Assembly (NCBI RefSeq): GCF_003003255.1
Contig: NZ_PVTD01000006.1
Location: 124,001 to 188,000, forward strand
DNA length: 64,000 nt
From: Aliiruegeria haliotis
Lineage (GTDB): Bacteria > Pseudomonadota > Alphaproteobacteria > Rhodobacterales > Rhodobacteraceae
Direction: 5' to 3'
The translations under genes were made by a program, and so were the position numbers. The notes under the pieces are model-generated. The model was not told the DNA's origin, made no database searches, and saw only the letters and a program-made list of their open reading frames with translations. This document shows, in pieces, positions 49,709 to 59,578 of the stretch. Each line of letters opens with the position of its first letter. Position 1 is the stretch's first letter.

Positions 49709-51667
49709 ATGACTGCAAAAGCCAAGGCCACCGGAGCCATCCCAAAAGACTTCGCCAAGAATGCCCACATCACAGCCGCGAAATACGAGGAGATGTACGC
49801 GGCCTCCGTGGCTGATCCGGAGAAGTTTTGGGGAGAGCACGGCAAGCGGCTCGACTGGATCAAGCCCTACACGAAGGTGAAGAACACCTCGTTCGCGCCG
49901 GGCAATGTCGACATCAAGTGGTTCGAAGACGGTACGCTGAACGTCGCCGCCAACTGCGTTGATCGCCATCTCGAAAAGCGCGCGCATCAGACCGCGATCA
50001 TCTTCGAGCCCGACAATGTCGACGAGCCGGCGCAGTACATCACTTACAAGCAGCTTCACACGCAGGTCTGCAAGTTCTCCAACGTTCTGGAGGAGCTGGG
50101 TATCCGCAAGGGCGATCGCGTTGTCATCTACCTGCCAATGATCCCGGAGGCCGCCTACGCGATGCTGGCCTGTGCCCGCATCGGCGCCATCCATTCCATC
50201 GTCTTCGCAGGCTTCTCCCCCGATGCGCTGGCCGCCCGCGTCAACGGGTGCGACGCGAAGCTGGTGATCACCGCCGACTATGCGCCGCGCGGTGGCCGCA
50301 AGACGCCGCTGAAGTCCAACACCGACGCCGCCCTGCTGCACTGCATCCACGACCCAAGCGTCCTTGTCGTGCGCCGCACCGGCGAGCAGACCACATGGGT
50401 CGATGGCCGTGACTTCGACTACGGCGAGATGATGCTGGAGGCCAACGACTACAATGCTCCGACCGAGGTTGGCGCAGAGGACCCGCTCTTCATCCTGTAT
50501 ACATCCGGCTCGACCGGTCACCCCAAGGGGGTCGTGCACACCTCTGGCGGCTACCTCGTCTATGCGGCGATGACCCATGAATACACCTTCGACTACCATG
50601 AAGGTGACGTGTTCTGGTGCACCGCCGACGTTGGCTGGGTCACTGGCCACAGCTATATCGTCTATGGCCCGCTGGCCAACGGCGCGACCACGGTGATGTT
50701 CGAAGGCGTGCCGACCTATCCGGATGCCGGGCGTTTCTGGGAAGTGTGCGACAAGCACAAGGTCAACCAGTTCTACACCGCGCCGACGGCCATCCGCGCG
50801 CTGATGGGCAAGGGCGACGAGTGGGTCGAAAAGTATGACCTGTCGAGCCTGCGCCTTCTGGGGTCGGTCGGTGAGCCGATCAACCCGGAAGCCTGGAACT
50901 GGTACAACGAGAAGGTCGGCAAGGGGAGATGTCCCATCGTCGACACCTACTGGCAGACGGAAACCGGCGGTCACCTGATCACGCCGCTGCCGGGGGCGCA
51001 TGGTACCAAGCCGGGCGCGGCCTCCTTCCCGTTCTTCGGCGTGCAGCCGGTTGTCCTTGATCCGCAATCGGGTGAGGAGATCCATGCAACCGAGGCGGAG
51101 GGCGTGATCTGCTTCAAGGACAGCTGGCCCGGCCAGATGCGCGGTGTCTGGGACGACCACGGTCGCTTCGAGAAGACCTATTTTGCGGACTACAAGAACT
51201 ACTACTTTGCGGGTGACGGCTGTCGTCGCGACGCCGACGGGTACTACTGGATCACCGGCCGTGTGGATGACGTCATCAACGTGTCCGGCCACCGGATGGG
51301 CACCGCGGAAGTCGAGAGCGCGCTGGTTGCACATGCCAAGGTCGCCGAGGCCGCCGTGGTGGGCTACCCGCACGACGTCAAGGGCCAGGGCATCTACTGC
51401 TACGTGACGCTGATGAACGATGTCGAGCCTTCCGACGAGTTGCTGAAGGAACTGCGCACCTGGGTTCGCCACGAGATTGGCCCGATCGCGACGCCCGATG
51501 TTGTCCAGTGGGCGCCCGGCCTGCCGAAGACCCGCTCCGGCAAGATCATGCGCCGCATCCTGCGCAAGATCGCCGAGAACGACTACGGTTCGCTTGGCGA
51601 CACCTCGACGCTCGCCGATCCGTCGGTGGTCGATGACCTGATCGAAAACCGTCAGAACCGGAAGTGA
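49709..51667 (+). CDS. acs: Acetyl-CoA synthetase, AMP-forming
   Basis: 652 residues, normal length. The ATP/AMP loop [11 protein letters not shown] is at 264-274, the acyl-binding [12 protein letters not shown] block follows, and the regulatory lysine is K612 in [11 protein letters not shown], the residue acetylated in other bacteria. Reaction: acetate + ATP + CoA to acetyl-CoA + AMP + PPi in the cytosol. It heads a gene series with adenylate kinase 4 bases downstream, then the DUF4212/sodium symporter uptake pair and signalling genes, indicating acetate (or propionate) assimilation. Confidence 0.96.
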
Positions 51668-51671
51668 TCCG

Positions 51672-52349
51672 ATGAGTGAAGCACCCACCCCACCCGTGCT
51701 GATCCTGCTGGGCCCTCCGGGGGCCGGCAAGGGCACCCAGGCACGGATGCTGGAGGACGCCTTCGGCCTCGTGCAGCTCTCCACCGGGGACCTGCTGCGC
51801 GGCGCCGTGGCCTCGGGCACCGAGGCTGGCCTCGCGGCGAAGGCCGTCATGGAGGCCGGTGAACTGGTGAGCGACGAAATCGTCATCGCCGTGCTCAAGG
51901 ATCGCCTCGGCGATGACGACACCGCGAAGGGTGTCATCCTTGACGGTTTCCCGCGCACCACGGCCCAGGCCGAAGCGCTGGACGGCCTGCTTGCCTCCTC
52001 CGGTCAGAAGATCAACGCCGCGATCAGCCTTGAAGTCGAGGACGACGCGATGGTGGAGCGGATTTCCGGTCGCTACACCTGCGGCAATTGCGGCGAGGGC
52101 TATCACGACAGCTTCAAGACGCCGGCCGTGGACGGCATTTGCGACAAATGCGGCGGTACGGAGTTCAAGCGTCGCTCGGACGACAATGCCGAAACCGTGC
52201 GCTCGCGGCTGGAAGCCTATCACGCGCAGACCGCGCCCCTGATCGACTTCTACCAGGGCCGGGGCGTTCTGAAGGAGGTCGCCGCCATGGGCGCGATCGA
52301 GGAGATCGCCGGCAAGCTCAACGAAATTGTCGCGCAGGCCCGCGCCTGA
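51672..52349 (+). CDS. adk: Adenylate kinase (long, zinc-finger type)
   Basis: 225 residues. P-loop GPPGAGKGT (14-22), AMP-site LSTGDLLRGAVASGT, GFPRT motif, and a LID with four cysteines C137, C140, C157 and C160 for zinc, as in Gram-positive-like long Adks. It converts AMP + ATP to 2 ADP. The start is 5 bases after the acs stop, so it is probably co-transcribed, and it would recycle the AMP made by Acs. Many alphaproteobacteria also keep adk in the ribosomal-protein operon, so this could be a second copy. Confidence 0.95.
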   Translation: MSEAPTPPVLILLGPPGAGKGTQARMLEDAFGLVQLSTGDLLRGAVASGTEAGLAAKAVMEAGELVSDEIVIAVLKDRLGDDDTAKGVILDGFPRTTAQAEALDGLLASSGQKINAAISLEVEDDAMVERISGRYTCGNCGEGYHDSFKTPAVDGICDKCGGTEFKRRSDDNAETVRSRLEAYHAQTAPLIDFYQGRGVLKEVAAMGAIEEIAGKLNEIVAQARA

Positions 52350-52468
52350 CCGACAGGGCGGGCAGCCTCATGCCCGCCGACGACCGGACCCGACTGTCCG
52401 GGAGAAAAACGCTGCCTTGCACGGGAGGTGCAGGGCGGGAGAACAGCCAACCAATCGGGAGGACCGAA

Positions 52469-52729
52469 ATGTCGGACAAACCTGAAAACAATGCGTATTG
52501 GGCGACGAACATCAAGATCGTCACCTGGTGCCTCGTCATCTGGGCACTCGTGTCCTTCGGCTTCGGCATTCTGCTGCGGCCGCTGCTCTCGGGGATCGCC
52601 GTCGGCGGCTCGGACCTGGGCTTCTGGTTCGCCCAGCAAGGTTCGATCCTCGTCTTCCTCGGGATCATCTTCTTCTACGCCTGGCGGATGAACAAGCTCG
52701 ACGCCGAACACGGCGTGGACGAGCAGTAA
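52469..52729 (+). CDS. DUF4212 small subunit of sodium/solute symporter
   Basis: 86-residue membrane protein with two helices (about 14-36 and 48-70), opening MSDKPENNAYWATNIKIV and containing WALVSFGFGILL, typical of the DUF4212 family. GGGAGGA precedes the ATG by 5 bases. These small proteins are encoded directly before an SSS-family carrier of the VC_2705 type and are thought to be its accessory subunit. The stop is 18 bases before the symporter start. Confidence 0.88.
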   Translation: MSDKPENNAYWATNIKIVTWCLVIWALVSFGFGILLRPLLSGIAVGGSDLGFWFAQQGSILVFLGIIFFYAWRMNKLDAEHGVDEQ

Positions 52730-52747: not shown

Positions 52748-54538
<1,791 letters not shown>

Positions 54539-54659: not shown

Positions 54660-56504
54660 ATGATGCCAGATTCCGCCCTCGATCGAGACACCCGCATTCT
54701 GCGCTTTCTCGAACACGTCCACCCCTACGACAGCATGAAGCGCGAGACGCTGATCCGCATTTCCAAGGCCTTTCTCGATCGCAGCGCGGAAGCCGGGAGC
54801 ATGATCTACGCCGCCGGCACGCAGCTCGAAGGGCTATACCTGATCGAACACGGCACGGTTGAGATCACCGATCGCAACGGTGCGCCGGTGTCCATCCTTC
54901 ATGGCCGCAACTCCTTCGGAGAGCGTGGTCTGACCCGCGATGGCGTCGCGGTCACAAACGCGAAGGCCACGGAGGACACACGGCTACTCCTCCTGCCCGC
55001 AGACCAGTTCCACGAATTGCTCGAAAGTTCCAAAAGCTTCGCCCGTTTCTTCGATCGTGGGCGGAGCCCTGCGAAGGAACGGGGCGGTGATCTGACGACG
55101 CAGCGGGTGGGCGACCTGATGGCCCGCAACCCGATTGCGGTGGCGCCCACAACGCCGATCCAGACGGCCGCCACGATGATGCGCGACACCCGGGTCTCCT
55201 GCCTTGCGGTGACGGAAGGCGAAAACCAGCTTGTCGGGATCGTGACGCTCAGGGACATGGCGACCAAGGCCGTGGCGTCCGGCCTGTCGGGCGACACACC
55301 GGTCAGCCGGATCATGACGGCAGACCCCGCGAGCCTGCCGCCTTCCGCTCTCGGGTCCGACCTGCTCCATGTGATGCTGGAGCGAAAGGTCGGCCACGTC
55401 ACCGTGACCGAGGGCAAGCGGATCGTCGGCATCCTGACACAGACGGACCTGACCCGCTTCCAGGCGATCAGCTCCGCATCGATGGTGCAGGAGATCGCCG
55501 ACGCCTACTCCGCCGAAGCGATGGCCAAGGTCACTGCCCGCCTGCCCAAGCTGCTGATGCAACTGGTGGGCGCCGGCAACCGTCACGAGGTCGTCACCCG
55601 GCTGATCACCGATATCGCCGATGCCGTGACACGCCGCCTGCTGGCGCTTGCTGAGGGCGAGTTCGGACCACCGCCCGTGCCCTACCTGTGGCTCGCCTGC
55701 GGCAGCCAGGGGCGTCAGGAGCAGACCGGTGTGTCCGATCAGGACAATTGCATCATCATTGATGACGCGGTGACCGAGGCCGACATGGGTTACTACCGAA
55801 AGCTGGCGAAGTTCGTGTGCGACGGGCTGAACACCTGCGGATATTTCTATTGTCCCGGCGACATGATGGCGACCAACGAGCGTTGGTGCCAGCCGGTGAA
55901 GGTCTGGAAACGGTACTTCCAGGGATGGATCGACAAACCGGACCCGGAGGCACAGATGCTGGCCTCGGTCATGTTCGACCTGCGCCCTATCGGTGGCACG
56001 CAGTCGCTGTTTGCGAACCTGCAAATGGAAACGCTGGAGGCCGCGCGCAAGAACACGATCTTCGTTGGCCACATGATCGTCAACTCGCTCAAGCACACGC
56101 CGCCGCTGGGGTTGTTCCGCGGGTTTGCCACGGTGCGCTCGGGTGAGCACAAGAACGAACTCGACATGAAGATGAACGGCGTGGTGCCGGTTGTCGATCT
56201 TGGCCGGGTCTACGCGTTGCAGGGCACATTGACCGAGGTGAACACCCGGGCCCGCCTGGAAGCGGCCGAGGCCAATGGTACGATCTCGCAATCTGGTGCG
56301 CATGATCTGCTTGATGCCTATGACCTGATCGCCGAAACCCGACTGAAGCGTCAGGCCGACGAGATCCGGGCCGGACGCAAGCCCGACAACTTCATGCCGC
56401 CGTCGGATCTGAGCGATCTGGAGCGCAGCCATCTGCGCGACGCCTTCGTCGTGGTGCGGACCATGCAATCGGCGATCGGGCAGGGCAAGGGAATGCTGAG
56501 CTGA
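54660..56504 (+). CDS. cNMP-binding/CBS/DUF294 putative nucleotidyltransferase
   Basis: 614 residues from the paired ATGs at 54660/54663. Domains: cyclic-nucleotide-binding-like (about 30-135, GTQLEGLYLIEHGTVEI), two CBS repeats (about 150-285), a DUF294 nucleotidyltransferase core (about 310-460) with CGSQGRQEQTGVSDQDNCII, which holds the GSxGR...DxD pattern of the GlnD-like fold, and DUF294_C to the end. Probably an adenosine-ligand-regulated nucleotidyl transferase acting on a protein or nucleotide; the true reaction is unknown. In gammaproteobacteria such genes also sit by acs/actP and a DnaQ exonuclease. Earlier in-frame ATGs (54567, 54630) are possible. Confidence 0.82.
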   Translation: MMPDSALDRDTRILRFLEHVHPYDSMKRETLIRISKAFLDRSAEAGSMIYAAGTQLEGLYLIEHGTVEITDRNGAPVSILHGRNSFGERGLTRDGVAVTNAKATEDTRLLLLPADQFHELLESSKSFARFFDRGRSPAKERGGDLTTQRVGDLMARNPIAVAPTTPIQTAATMMRDTRVSCLAVTEGENQLVGIVTLRDMATKAVASGLSGDTPVSRIMTADPASLPPSALGSDLLHVMLERKVGHVTVTEGKRIVGILTQTDLTRFQAISSASMVQEIADAYSAEAMAKVTARLPKLLMQLVGAGNRHEVVTRLITDIADAVTRRLLALAEGEFGPPPVPYLWLACGSQGRQEQTGVSDQDNCIIIDDAVTEADMGYYRKLAKFVCDGLNTCGYFYCPGDMMATNERWCQPVKVWKRYFQGWIDKPDPEAQMLASVMFDLRPIGGTQSLFANLQMETLEAARKNTIFVGHMIVNSLKHTPPLGLFRGFATVRSGEHKNELDMKMNGVVPVVDLGRVYALQGTLTEVNTRARLEAAEANGTISQSGAHDLLDAYDLIAETRLKRQADEIRAGRKPDNFMPPSDLSDLERSHLRDAFVVVRTMQSAIGQGKGMLS

Positions 56505-56551
56505 CACGGCTCGGGCGCGCCGCCTAGGCGGCCATGGACCAGGGAGGGGCC

Positions 56552-57079
56552 ATGTTTCTGGAACTGATAGCCGCTGTTGCGGCCGGTTTTTTCGGCGCGG
56601 GTGCCGCAATGGCCGCAAACTGGTTGAGCGGTGGTCGTCTACCGCGGTGGAGCATGCCGGTGGCCGCCGGCGCCTGCATGATCGCCCTTGCGATCCGGAT
56701 GGAATACGCTTGGTTCGAGACCAATACGGCGGATTTCCCCGAAGGCGTCGAGATCACCAGCACGCGCGAAAGCTCTGCGTTCTGGCGGCCGTGGACCTAT
56801 GTCTGGCCGATGACCGACGGGTTCACGGCGGTCGATCTGGCTTCCGTCCGGACCAACGATACCGTGCCGGATCAGGCGATGGCCAAAATGTTCTTCTTCG
56901 CACGCTGGAAGGCCCCGCGTGAGGTGCAGATGGTGTTTGACTGCACCGACAACCGCATCGCACCTCTCAACGACACTATCACCTTTGACGATAGCGGCGC
57001 CGTGGCCGAGGCCGATTGGGCGATGCTGCCTGCCGACGACCCGACCCTCACCACCGTGTGCAAGGAGATCCGACCATGA
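56552..57079 (+). CDS. Membrane-anchored hypothetical protein in acetate signalling cluster
   Basis: 175 residues from ATG 56552, with AGGGAGG just before it; an ATG at 56534 adds six residues. One or two N-terminal hydrophobic segments (about 3-24 and 36-50) precede a soluble domain of about 120 residues with conserved-looking WRPWTYVWPMTDGF and FFFARWKAPREVQMVFDCTD. Family not recognised. Its stop overlaps the response-regulator start (ATGA), so its product probably works with the regulator/exonuclease pair. The soluble part likely faces the periplasm or the cytosol; the topology is unclear. Confidence 0.7.
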   Translation: MFLELIAAVAAGFFGAGAAMAANWLSGGRLPRWSMPVAAGACMIALAIRMEYAWFETNTADFPEGVEITSTRESSAFWRPWTYVWPMTDGFTAVDLASVRTNDTVPDQAMAKMFFFARWKAPREVQMVFDCTDNRIAPLNDTITFDDSGAVAEADWAMLPADDPTLTTVCKEIRP

Positions 57080-57480
57080 CCGGAACCGATCGTCCCGCCC
57101 GTATCCTGATCGTGGAAGACGAGGACAACATCGCGCTGGCACTCACCCATGTCCTGGGTCGGGAGGGTTGGGCGGTGAGCCGTGTCGCCGATGGCGATTC
57201 CGCCTTGCCCGCGATCCGTGCGGAGCGCCCCGACCTCGTGCTTCTCGATGTGATGCTGCCGGGGATCTCCGGCTACGAGGTCTGCCAGGCGGTGCGGCTC
57301 GAAGACGACCTGTCGGATGTGCGCATCCTGATGATGACCGCGCGAGGCAATGCAATGGAACGCCGCAAGGGGCTTGCCCTCGGGGCCGACGGGTTCATTG
57401 CCAAACCCTTCGACTTGTCTCACCTTCTGGAGCAGGCCCGGGACTTGCTGTCCGGGCAGGCGGAGGCAAATGATGCATGA
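57076..57480 (+). CDS. Single-domain response regulator
   Basis: 134 residues comprising only a receiver domain. Acid pocket in LIVEDEDN (residues 11-18), phosphoryl aspartate D58 in LVLLDVMLPG, the threonine in MMTARG, and lysine in FIAKPFD. No output domain, so it signals by protein contact, like CheY or Spo0F. It overlaps both the small membrane protein gene (ATGA) and the start region of the pseudokinase-exonuclease gene, implying a shared pathway. Its kinase may be elsewhere, since the adjacent sensor lacks a phospho-histidine. Confidence 0.88.
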   Translation: MTGTDRPARILIVEDEDNIALALTHVLGREGWAVSRVADGDSALPAIRAERPDLVLLDVMLPGISGYEVCQAVRLEDDLSDVRILMMTARGNAMERRKGLALGADGFIAKPFDLSHLLEQARDLLSGQAEANDA

Positions 57481-59578
57481 ATGGCTAGCGCGGAAACTCA
57501 GCCTCAGGCTTCGTGTCTTCCTCTTCTTTGCCCTCGTGGCGCTTGGCGGGCTTGCGGCGGTCGCGCTCGGGCTCTGGTCCGGATATCGGCGGGTGGACGA
57601 ACATGGCGTTGCCTCGGGGTTCACCTTTGCCGGGTTGATTGCGGGGTTCGGGATCCTGGGCCTCGTGGTCTGGGTCTGGTTCCTGTTCGACGAGAATGTC
57701 GCCAAGGCGATCCAGAAACTCGCCGGCGGGCTGCGCGCCCGGGCACACGCGGATATCGATGGCGATCTCGACCATGAGCCGGCCCGCTACCTCGGCGATC
57801 TTGCTCCCGCGGCGCAGGCAATCACCGGCTCGCTGAGCGAGACGAAGAACGCACTCGCCGAGGCCGTGGAGCGTGAAACAACCCGGCTGGCGGTGGAAAA
57901 CGCGCGGTTGCAGGCGTTGCTTGGCGATGTGCCGGAAGGGGTGCTGCTCTGCTCGTCCGATCACCAGATCGTCTTCTACAATGGCCGGGCGCAGCAGATC
58001 CTGACCGGGGAGGTCGCGCCGGGCCTCGATCGCTCGGTTCTGGACTACCTCAGCCCGTCTCCAATCCGGAATGCCTACCAACGGCTGGTGTCGGCCGAGG
58101 ACGACGACGCCGCCTGTGATGTCCTGTGCACTGCAACCCACTCTCTGGAAGTGCTTGCCGGTCGCATGCGGCTGGTGAAACTCCCGCAGCGCACCTCGGA
58201 ATCGCCAGGCTACGTGCTGACCCTTCGGGACATCACCGCGGACATGGCGTTGCACTCCGTGCGGGAAGGCCTCCTGGAGGATGTGTTCGACCAGGTGCGC
58301 CGCCCGGCGGCAAACCTGCAAACCGTGCTCGATGCCGGTGTGCTGGAAAACGGCGACGGGCGGCAAGCGCTCATGGGCGAGGTCTCGGCACTGGCCCATG
58401 CAATCACCGATCTGGCGCATCGCTACGATTCCGCTCGTGGCGGGTGGTGGCCGATGGAGGAGATCCGGGGATCGGAACTGGTGGATTCCGTCGTGGCACG
58501 GGTTGCGCACGAGGGCGTCAATCTGATCGCCGAGGCCGAACGGGTCATGCTGCGGGTGGACGCCTTCCACATGGTGGCCCTGCTGACCCATCTGTGCGAA
58601 CGCCTTGTGACTGTCATTGGCGCGCGCGCGCTGTCGCTGCGGATTGCCGATGACGAGGAAGGCGGCGCGATGATCACCATCGGATGGGCCGGCGATGTCC
58701 TTCAGGTCGGATTGCTGGAGGGTTGGCTGGATGTGCGCCTGGAGGTCGGGTTGGCGAATGTGACCGGGCGCACAATCCTCGACGCACATGCCACCGAGAG
58801 CTGGCCGGAGCCCGGTGCGGCCGGGCGGCGTCTGTTGCGATTGCCGCTCCGCGAGGCCTGGCCAGTGGGCGCGCCAGCGCCTGCGCCGCGTCGTTCCGCG
58901 GTCTACGATTTCGATCTGATGGACCGGGATCCCACAGGCGAACTGGCCGAAACCCCGTTGCGGGAGTTGACCTGTGTGGTGTTCGACACGGAGACGACCG
59001 GCCTGCTGCCATCCTCGGGCGACGAGATCGTACAGATCGCCGCGTTGCGGCTGCTTGGCGGCAAGCGGATCCCCGGCGAGACCTTCGAAAGCCTCGTGAA
59101 CCCGCAGCGCCCGATTCCGGCCTCTGCAACCGAGGTTCACCATGTCACCAACGAGATGGTGGCGAATGCGCCGACAATCGACGTGGTCGGACGGCGCTTC
59201 CACGGCTTCGCGCAAGGCGCTGTGCTGGTGGCCCACAACGCGCCTTTCGACATGGAGTTCCTGCGCCGCCACGAGGCGGGGATCGGAAAACGGTTCGAAA
59301 ACCCGGTGCTGGACACCGTTCTGCTGTCCGCCGTGGTCTTCGGGCAGTCGGAGACCCATACCCTGGATGCCCTGACCGAGCGGCTGGGGATCGTGATCCC
59401 ACCGGAGGCGCGCCACACCGCCATGGGCGACACGATCGCGACGGCGGCAGCACTGGAGATGATGATCCCGATGTTGGAAGGGCAGGGCTACCGCACCTTC
59501 GGGGAGGTGGTCGCGGCCGTGCGCAAGCATGGGCGGCTCCTGAAGGATCTCAATGCGGTGGAAGTCGGAGCGCACTGA
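57473..59578 (+). CDS. Degenerate sensor histidine kinase fused to DnaQ-type 3'-5' exonuclease
   Basis: 701 residues from ATG 57473 (GGAGG spaced 6); ATG 57470 is the alternative. Two helices (about 13-36 and 48-72) bracket a short loop, then a HAMP-like linker, a coiled coil (about 115-150), a PAS-like domain (about 150-245) and a DHp-like helix (about 260-330) where the usual phospho-histidine box reads DVFDQVRRPAANLQ, with no His. An HATPase-like region follows (about 340-470) without clear N and G boxes. A DEDDh exonuclease occupies about 497-665: D505/E507 in FDTETTG, D in HNAPFDMEF, and HTAMGD. The protein would hydrolyse DNA or RNA ends under control of a membrane sensor. The fusion is unusual; the nuclease substrate is unknown. 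Confidence 0.82.
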   Translation: MHEWLARKLSLRLRVFLFFALVALGGLAAVALGLWSGYRRVDEHGVASGFTFAGLIAGFGILGLVVWVWFLFDENVAKAIQKLAGGLRARAHADIDGDLDHEPARYLGDLAPAAQAITGSLSETKNALAEAVERETTRLAVENARLQALLGDVPEGVLLCSSDHQIVFYNGRAQQILTGEVAPGLDRSVLDYLSPSPIRNAYQRLVSAEDDDAACDVLCTATHSLEVLAGRMRLVKLPQRTSESPGYVLTLRDITADMALHSVREGLLEDVFDQVRRPAANLQTVLDAGVLENGDGRQALMGEVSALAHAITDLAHRYDSARGGWWPMEEIRGSELVDSVVARVAHEGVNLIAEAERVMLRVDAFHMVALLTHLCERLVTVIGARALSLRIADDEEGGAMITIGWAGDVLQVGLLEGWLDVRLEVGLANVTGRTILDAHATESWPEPGAAGRRLLRLPLREAWPVGAPAPAPRRSAVYDFDLMDRDPTGELAETPLRELTCVVFDTETTGLLPSSGDEIVQIAALRLLGGKRIPGETFESLVNPQRPIPASATEVHHVTNEMVANAPTIDVVGRRFHGFAQGAVLVAHNAPFDMEFLRRHEAGIGKRFENPVLDTVLLSAVVFGQSETHTLDALTERLGIVIPPEARHTAMGDTIATAAALEMMIPMLEGQGYRTFGEVVAAVRKHGRLLKDLNAVEVGAH

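Follow-up and report, generated by a model that had tools for sequence, protein, structure and literature searches.

We analysed a window of 64,000 nucleotides (nt) from the genome of Aliiruegeria haliotis (contig NZ_PVTD01000006.1, positions 124,001 to 188,000), which encodes a membrane-anchored protein of 701 residues that joins a dead histidine-kinase part to an intact DEDDh 3'-5' exonuclease. The gene for this fusion overlaps that of a single-domain receiver. Among relatives, the receiver gene and the DHp-like hairpin of the fusion are nearly always lost together, the receivers are intact, and an arginine equivalent to one that docks the receiver in DivL is conserved. We consider it probable that a transporter-like kinase of the SLC5-STAC type phosphorylates the receiver, which then docks on the dead kinase and switches the membrane-bound exonuclease.

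57076..57480, + strand: single-domain CheY-like receiver gene, 134 amino acids (aa), the proposed input of the pseudokinase (PF00072, E 5.5e-27)
57473..59578 (ATG at 57473; ATG at 57470 also possible), + strand: pseudo-histidine-kinase-exonuclease gene, 701 aa

The two genes lie on the same strand and overlap by 8-11 nt; the overlap itself had been noted in a preliminary description of the window, based on its letters.

Architecture of the fusion protein

The protein is ordered TM–HAMP-like–PAS–DHp-like–ATPase-like–DEDDh exonuclease (TM, transmembrane), with the following parts.

57503..57748, + strand: two predicted TM helices, residues 11-40 and 47-92, the second continuing into a HAMP-like stretch (AlphaFold2)
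57938..58231, + strand: PAS domain, residues 156-253 (AlphaFold2; WalK PAS and DosP in the profile search)
58235..58438, + strand: pseudo-DHp helical hairpin, residues 255-322, helices 255-287 and 294-322 (models, Foldseek, HMM alignment to kinase H-boxes)
58289..58291, + strand: codon of D273, at the place of the phospho-histidine (alignment column 273)
58298..58300, + strand: codon of R276 (His site +3), the proposed receiver-docking arginine
58457..58849, + strand: ATPase-like (CA) domain, residues 329-459, with W405 at the place of the G1 Asp
58970..59482, + strand: DEDDh 3'-5' exonuclease domain, residues 500-670

The Pfam models HAMP, HisKA and HATPase_c do not match the window protein, and the PAS model PF08448 matches below its cut-off (E 0.0015). 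The full-length AlphaFold2 model (pLDDT 87.4) consists of two TM helices, a long linker helix, the PAS domain, the DHp hairpin, the ATPase-like domain and the exonuclease. When the kinase core was modelled alone (pLDDT 89.7, pTM 0.73), its top Foldseek match was the known pseudokinase DivL (4q20_B, E 6.1e-11). A profile of 52 homologues matched solved histidine kinases, namely VicK (4i5s, profile positions 50-474, E 1.8e-25), ThkA, DivL and HK853, and the fusion profile also matched HAMP-bearing transducers. These models and profiles show the DHp and ATPase assignments to be right despite the lack of Pfam matches. The sensor parts named in the preliminary description (HAMP-like, PAS-like, DHp-like and ATPase-like) are thus recovered by structure prediction, Foldseek and profile matches; a DHp/ATPase-like fold does precede the nuclease, and the protein has the PAS-DHp-CA fold of a DivL-like pseudokinase, with no phospho-histidine.

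A dead kinase site and an intact nuclease site

The H-box of kinases, S-H-E-L-R-T-P-L, aligns with F-D-Q-V-R-R-P-A in the window protein, which places D273 at the phospho-histidine position. In 150 aligned rows, column 273 holds E in 67, D in 53, another residue in 25 and a gap in 5. His occurs in none, and we rejected the possibility of an intact kinase ancestor inside the family after checking these rows. The G1-box Asp is replaced by Trp (W405) in 141/150 rows, the first Gly (G407) is kept in 143/150, and the N and second G boxes are not recognisable in the alignment of the ATPase-like part. Scanned singly, four of 52 cores match HisKA (best E 8e-5) and none of the 52 matches HATPase_c. The phospho-accepting His and the N/G1/G2 boxes expected of an active HisKA-type histidine kinase are both absent, as the preliminary description had proposed. 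Kinases with phosphatase activity have Thr or Asn four residues after the His site; the corresponding column 277 is R, A, G or P in 123/150 rows and Thr or Asn in 5.

From these sequence features, the kinase part should neither take nor give phosphate, because the His and the G1 Asp are missing. Catalysis by an unusual route, with an acidic residue at the His site and an altered nucleotide site, might be read from the acidic residue 273 in 120 of the 145 non-gap rows, but the Trp at the G1 Asp, the unrecognisable N and second G boxes and the uniform failure of HATPase_c to match make that scarcely credible.

The exonuclease site is intact. PF00929 matches residues 502-660 (E 6.9e-34) with 118 bits, where the cut-off is 24, and the D-E-D-H-D catalytic residues are in place: D505 and E507 in 150/150 rows, and D593, H648 and D653 in 149/150, with one gap. 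The models, profiles and catalytic residues therefore bear out the earlier proposal of a membrane-anchored pseudo-histidine-kinase joined to a nuclease that has kept its active site.

Joint loss of the receiver and the pseudo-DHp hairpin

PF00072 is the sole model over its cut-off in the window receiver, which has D58, K110 and T88 and no other domain. In the receiver alignment the phospho-Asp D58 and K110 are present in 114/114 sequences (113 loci and the window), and T or S is found at position 88 in 113/114. Judging by conserved residues, a phosphorylatable receiver adjoins a protein that should be unable to phosphorylate it.

We compared the receiver and the hairpin across two sets of loci, a first set of 150 and a named set comprising the best 80 of 493 confirmed relatives; at least five genomes are common to both. 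A receiver was scored as present if a receiver frame lay on the same strand no more than 600 nt upstream (first set) or 700 nt upstream (named loci). The pseudo-DHp was scored as present if at least 18 residues occupied helix-1 columns 266-288 and position 276 was R or K. Among 149 rows of the first set (148 loci and the window), 68 have both, 76 have neither, 4 have the pseudo-DHp alone (L140, L147, L194, L214) and 1 has the receiver alone (L116, with a full hairpin and Ser at 276). Among 74 named loci, after 6 at contig ends were set aside, the counts are 45, 21, 8 and 0. Adjacent receivers are found beside 0/67 first-set frames without the ATPase-like part, and 0/14 such frames in the named set.

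On a tree of 139 rows, built from the N-terminal and exonuclease columns with the kinase part excluded, the two traits change 14 and 13 times. These counts alone do not give direction; we read the changes as losses because the long form with a receiver is also usual outside the family. Ten independent pairs lie on supported branches. On average, 6.8 of them show the receiver differing in the same direction as the hairpin, 3.2 show no difference in the receiver and 0.0 show the opposite direction (sign test p between 0.0156 and 0.0312, median 0.016). The reverse test, with the traits swapped, gave 8 pairs and p 0.0156-0.0625.

Among the joint losses are a group of 50 short forms (support 84) and a clade of 8 with a truncated hairpin, most of which keep the ATPase-like part (L109, L199, L205, L236, L237 and kin; support 99). 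Further cases are L112, L180, L128, L134 and L209, and in L229, from another class, the hairpin is deleted and the receiver is absent from the locus. In L109, L112, L180, L199, L205, L236 and L237 the hairpin and the receiver are gone and the ATPase-like part is kept. Two separate deletions are needed in each joint loss because the retained TM-PAS part separates the receiver from the hairpin. Such separate joint deletions are the strongest argument for a functional link between the two. The near-constant absence of the receiver where the kinase-like docking part is absent suggests that a signal switches the exonuclease on or off. The preliminary description had coupled the receiver to the fusion; that coupling now gains support beyond the gene overlap, and docking would be its form.

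In three loci (L238, L265 and L280, two of them from Paracoccus and Pontibaca records) helix 1 and R276 are kept, helix 2 is cut and the receiver is still present. This shortened hairpin is perhaps the minimal docking unit.

A conserved arginine at the proposed docking site

Position 276 is Arg in 113/114 loci with an adjacent receiver. In the 26 kinase-remnant loci without one it is Arg in 8 and Lys in 2 (Fisher p 1e-15, uncorrected for kinship). For this count L140, L262 and L316 were set aside and L285 was moved by hand. R276 lies three residues after the His site, as does R553 of DivL (Tyr550 + 3), the sole DivL docking residue that we compared. The R553A change cuts binding of phosphorylated DivK (DivK~P) 8-15-fold, as do three other mutants, and the Y550H change does not reduce it (PMC4211667).

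Four loci with Deltaproteobacteria or Desulfuromonad(ales) labels (L289, L306, L323, L328) have a full-length hairpin with Gln at 276 and no receiver nearby.

The SLC5-STAC kinase and possible sources of the signal

In 37/230 loci (the loci are unequal in length) an SLC5-STAC kinase of ~740-1040 aa is encoded nearby, and its H-box is intact every time. In 34 of these the receiver is adjacent by the rule above, and in L140, L262 and L285 it lies within the locus. In a profile of 8 such kinases, the N-terminal 600 residues match the CbrA SLC5-STAC structure 10ed_A (PMC13022988), over profile positions 23-639 (E 4.4e-106). HisKA and HATPase_c score over cut-off in 3/3 kinases scanned, and the Pfam SSF model does not match. 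The kinase gene follows the fusion gene in some loci (L142, L143, L149) and lies upstream of it in others (L146, L150, L310), so the module has been reshuffled yet held together.

The genome of the window has its own SLC5-STAC kinase on another contig. The row of genes there (L340:3892-8771, corresponding to G000:C9:164891-169770) comprises a regulator with a ScfRs domain (short-chain fatty acyl-CoA type), a second single-domain receiver, a small frame and the intact SLC5-STAC-type histidine kinase (core at L340:6063-8771). The receiver had been described as an orphan, which does not hold across the family, given the kinases near relatives of the fusion and this one elsewhere in the same genome. 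On this genomic evidence, the SLC5-STAC kinase is a plausible partner of the window receiver; acetyl phosphate or a similar small-molecule phosphodonor may be another source.

In the family sample, the kinase (E <= 1e-80) is present in 35/35 receiver-bearing genomes and in 54/60 receiver-less genomes with the exonuclease (hand count, G234 excluded). We set this comparison aside as evidence for a link between kinase and receiver, for which it is too weak. It has some bearing on the idea that the receiver and pseudo-DHp are not partners, and that both went when a third factor was lost, for instance the SLC5-STAC kinase or a habitat. The 6 receiver-less genomes without the kinase, compared with none of those with the receiver, are in the direction that idea predicts, but the difference is small and most receiver-less genomes retain the kinase. 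In addition, deletion can hit the hairpin and spare the ATPase-like part, and the docking Arg tracks the receiver. We consider third-factor loss unlikely.

Evidence that weighs against a receiver-gated nuclease

Several results count against the proposal that the receiver acts through the pseudo-DHp. We settled on the hairpin rule with the alignment and the receiver status already in view side by side, although the hairpin was coded without the receiver. Four first-set and eight named loci fit the pseudo-DHp rule and have no adjacent receiver. Some of these have explanations: L285 missed the distance limit by 11 nt, the receiver is elsewhere in the locus in L140 and L262, and the hairpin is truncated in L194 and L214. 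The hairpin is present with no receiver nearby in L147, L259, L275, L294, L304, L319 and L322. The DHp region of the fusion shares no excess mutual information with the receiver (0.81-0.97 of the expected value; 114 pairs, effective number 65). The top DHp-region pairs link positions 277, 285 and 299 to receiver positions 14-22, which also score high elsewhere, and we give them no weight.

A looser hairpin rule (at least 50 residues), used with an exonuclease-only tree, gave 69 rows with both, 69 with neither, 11 with the DHp only and 0 with the receiver only, and left just 2-3 independent pairs with support. In place of this combination we used the rule based on helix 1 and R/K276, with the tree of N-terminal and exonuclease columns. 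The full-length AlphaFold2 model has a pTM of 0.47, so the relative placement of its domains is not reliable. Finally, the SLC5-STAC kinase in the genome of the window is unlinked to the fusion and adjoins a receiver of its own (40% identity to that of the window), which makes this kinase no more than a candidate for the window receiver.

Distribution and forms of the fusion

Matches at E <= 1e-40 occur in 96/199 genomes of the same family, as the long form, as a short form without the kinase part, or as fragments (G234). At the level of the class, 14/193 genomes have a match at E <= 1e-30. In the phylum, 41/299 genomes have the exonuclease part at E <= 1e-28, with 34 of these matches in open frames of at least 640 aa; among the 34, the N-terminal part is absent from G360 and G574. 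The best 80 of 493 relatives include records of Burkholderiales, Rhodocyclales, Magnetococcales, Colwellia, Pseudomonas, Desulfuromonadales, Nitrospirota and Acidobacteriota, many of them metagenome bins. Named homologues that are 55-57% identical come from Frigidibacter albus, Gemmobacter megaterium and Rhodobacter capsulatus, within these best 80, so that nearest kin may have been missed. The R. capsulatus record (L252) has a long-form homologue with a receiver.

Conservation of the fusion across many genomes of Pseudomonadota led us to reject a sequencing artefact, which the preliminary description had named as a possible refutation. Separately, the fusion gene is split or cut short in L022/L248 (G029), L219 (G234), L258 and L316, possibly by assembly errors.

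In the first set the ATPase-like part is present in 83 loci and absent from 67. Of the latter, 56 frames keep the N-terminal part and are typically TM-PAS-exonuclease proteins of ~460-510 aa; the remainder are fragments, or exonucleases whose N-terminal part is different or missing. These short forms, which lack both the kinase part and the receiver, make up a large group in the tree, so control by PAS can suffice. They are thus in keeping with a scheme in which the pseudokinase acts on the receiver, sequestering or stabilising its phosphorylated form, and the exonuclease is under PAS/membrane control only. Likewise, DivL prolongs the lifetime of DivK~P in vitro (PMC4211667). However, the nuclease is joined to the pseudokinase in one chain across classes, and the receiver is lost with the docking part, which suggests that the receiver serves the fusion. 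We regard action on the receiver as improbable, to about the same degree as loss of a third factor.

The gene set of the window and its acetate context

The genes preceding the fusion are, from 5' to 3', acs, adk, the DUF4212/VC_2705 pair, the cNMP-CBS-DUF294 gene, the gene for a 181-aa protein and the receiver gene.

49709..51667, + strand: acetyl-CoA synthetase gene acs (TIGR02188, AcsA, 1006 bits against a cut-off of 725; ACAS_N)
51672..52349, + strand: adenylate kinase-like gene (open reading frame; a homologue adjoins the cluster in relatives)
52442..52729, + strand: DUF4212 small symporter subunit (PF13937, TIGR03647)
52748..54538, + strand: VC_2705-family sodium/solute symporter (TIGR03648, 809 bits)
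54663..56504 (start codon uncertain), + strand: cNMP-CBS-DUF294 putative nucleotidyltransferase (PF03445, PF10335, PF00571, PF00027)
56534..57079, + strand: conserved 181-aa protein, function unassigned, between the DUF294 and receiver genes (hydrophobic N-terminus by eye)

The acs assignment supports the acetate setting put forward in the preliminary description; in a profile search of the genome contigs, the TIGR02188 match spans G000:C6:173775-175646. The gene at 51672..52349 is presumably adk, a name given by eye from the sequence with no family search. ActP was rejected as the identity of the symporter at 52748..54538, since TIGR02711 reaches just 135 bits, under its cut-off, compared with the TIGR03648 score. 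A promoter scan of 10.5 kb returned 0 promoter-like sites and is uninformative for this organism.

The 181-aa protein has zero Pfam matches over cut-off. Homologues were found by blastp in 108/150 first-set and 33/80 named loci, beside both long and short Rhodobacteraceae forms of the fusion, so it does not come and go with the receiver.

A DUF294-protein match was found by blastp in 142/150 first-set and 62/80 named loci, some possibly other CBS/cNMP proteins. Its frequency near the fusion would suit a nuclease that erases nucleotidyl groups added to a protein by the DUF294 nucleotidyltransferase, as part of a reversible control of acetate uptake or activation. The active site retained by the exonuclease cleaves phosphodiesters, and RNase Z has been published as a de-AMPylase (PMC12663964). 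Nevertheless, the closest solved relatives of the nuclease work on nucleic acid, and we hold the eraser role to be very unlikely.

Proposed mechanism

Under the mechanism that we favour, the SLC5-STAC histidine kinase would sense a short-chain acid and phosphorylate the small receiver. The receiver would then dock on the pseudo-DHp hairpin of the membrane-anchored fusion, as the joint loss and the docking residues suggest. With neither His nor G1 Asp in the kinase part, information would flow in reverse relative to a normal kinase, as it does from DivK~P to DivL in Caulobacter. Docking, together with the PAS/membrane part, would alter the kinase-like dimer and hence the activity or access of the DEDDh exonuclease. 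The substrate would be RNA or DNA, and the signal would switch the enzyme on or off. We infer the docking, the direction of the signal, the effect on the nuclease and the substrate alike from the computed features described above.

In evolutionary terms, it is about an even chance that this is an ancient form of signalling with a nuclease output, in which a transporter-like kinase phosphorylates a lone receiver, and the receiver acts on a dead kinase gating a 3'-5' exonuclease tethered to the membrane. Such signalling would be Pseudomonadota-wide and would occur in metagenome bins labelled Nitrospirota, Acidobacteriota and others. Joint loss of the receiver and the docking hairpin would have stripped it repeatedly to a PAS-only exonuclease.

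In bacteria, the usual outputs of two-component signalling are gene control, second messengers and motility. If the proposed mechanism is correct, a conserved branch ending in an exonuclease would let a cell that senses acetate-like carbon sources act directly on the turnover or repair of its nucleic acids. The fusion would also be another widespread natural dead kinase that reads a receiver, and the joint loss would provide independent evolutionary evidence for this.

Comparison with known systems

CrbS/CrbR (MxtR/ErdR) and CbrA/CbrB resemble the system in their carbon-source setting and in the SLC5-STAC kinase, which is encoded near relatives of the fusion. CrbR, an activator, belongs to the LuxR family, and CbrB contains a sigma54-interacting domain (PMC5715377). 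Unlike these regulators, the window receiver has no output domain, be it a LuxR-type or another DNA-binding domain, and lies beside a nuclease.

PP_0353/PP_0354 of Pseudomonas putida comprise a putative RNase_T exonuclease beside a CBS-domain gene in the acetate/pyruvate (ErdR) regulon; the source passages do not mention a fused sensor or pseudokinase for PP_0353 (PMC9927547). Under the conditions of that study, growth on pyruvate is affected by this putative exonuclease and growth on acetate is not; the authors speculate on a role in mRNA decay (PMC9927547). In the genus of the Pseudomonas record, 20/21 genomes show only distant DnaQ-like matches (best E 1e-17 to 1e-22). Three candidates of 204-225 aa have no DUF294 match within 11 kb. 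PP_0353 is no more than a possible orthologue of the window exonuclease. If correct, our proposal would offer a testable mechanism for the putative exonuclease of the Pseudomonas regulon.

The PolC exonuclease domain, DnaQ epsilon, DinG and RNase T have the fold and catalytic residues of the window exonuclease; among the matches examined, none of these is joined to a sensor or kinase part. Among the papers listed in searches of the open-licence literature we found no description of a kinase-like exonuclease fusion. Each part of the system is of a known kind; the proposed combination, a dead kinase read by a receiver with a nuclease as output, is a new one among the papers listed.

The nearest parallel is DivL-DivK of Caulobacter. 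There a pseudokinase responds to a single-domain receiver (PMC4211667), as we propose for the fusion. DivL carries Tyr in place of the His and acts via the kinase CckA (PMC4211667), whereas the window fusion has Asp or, in relatives, Glu at that site, a covalently fused exonuclease as its output, and a place within an acetate gene set.

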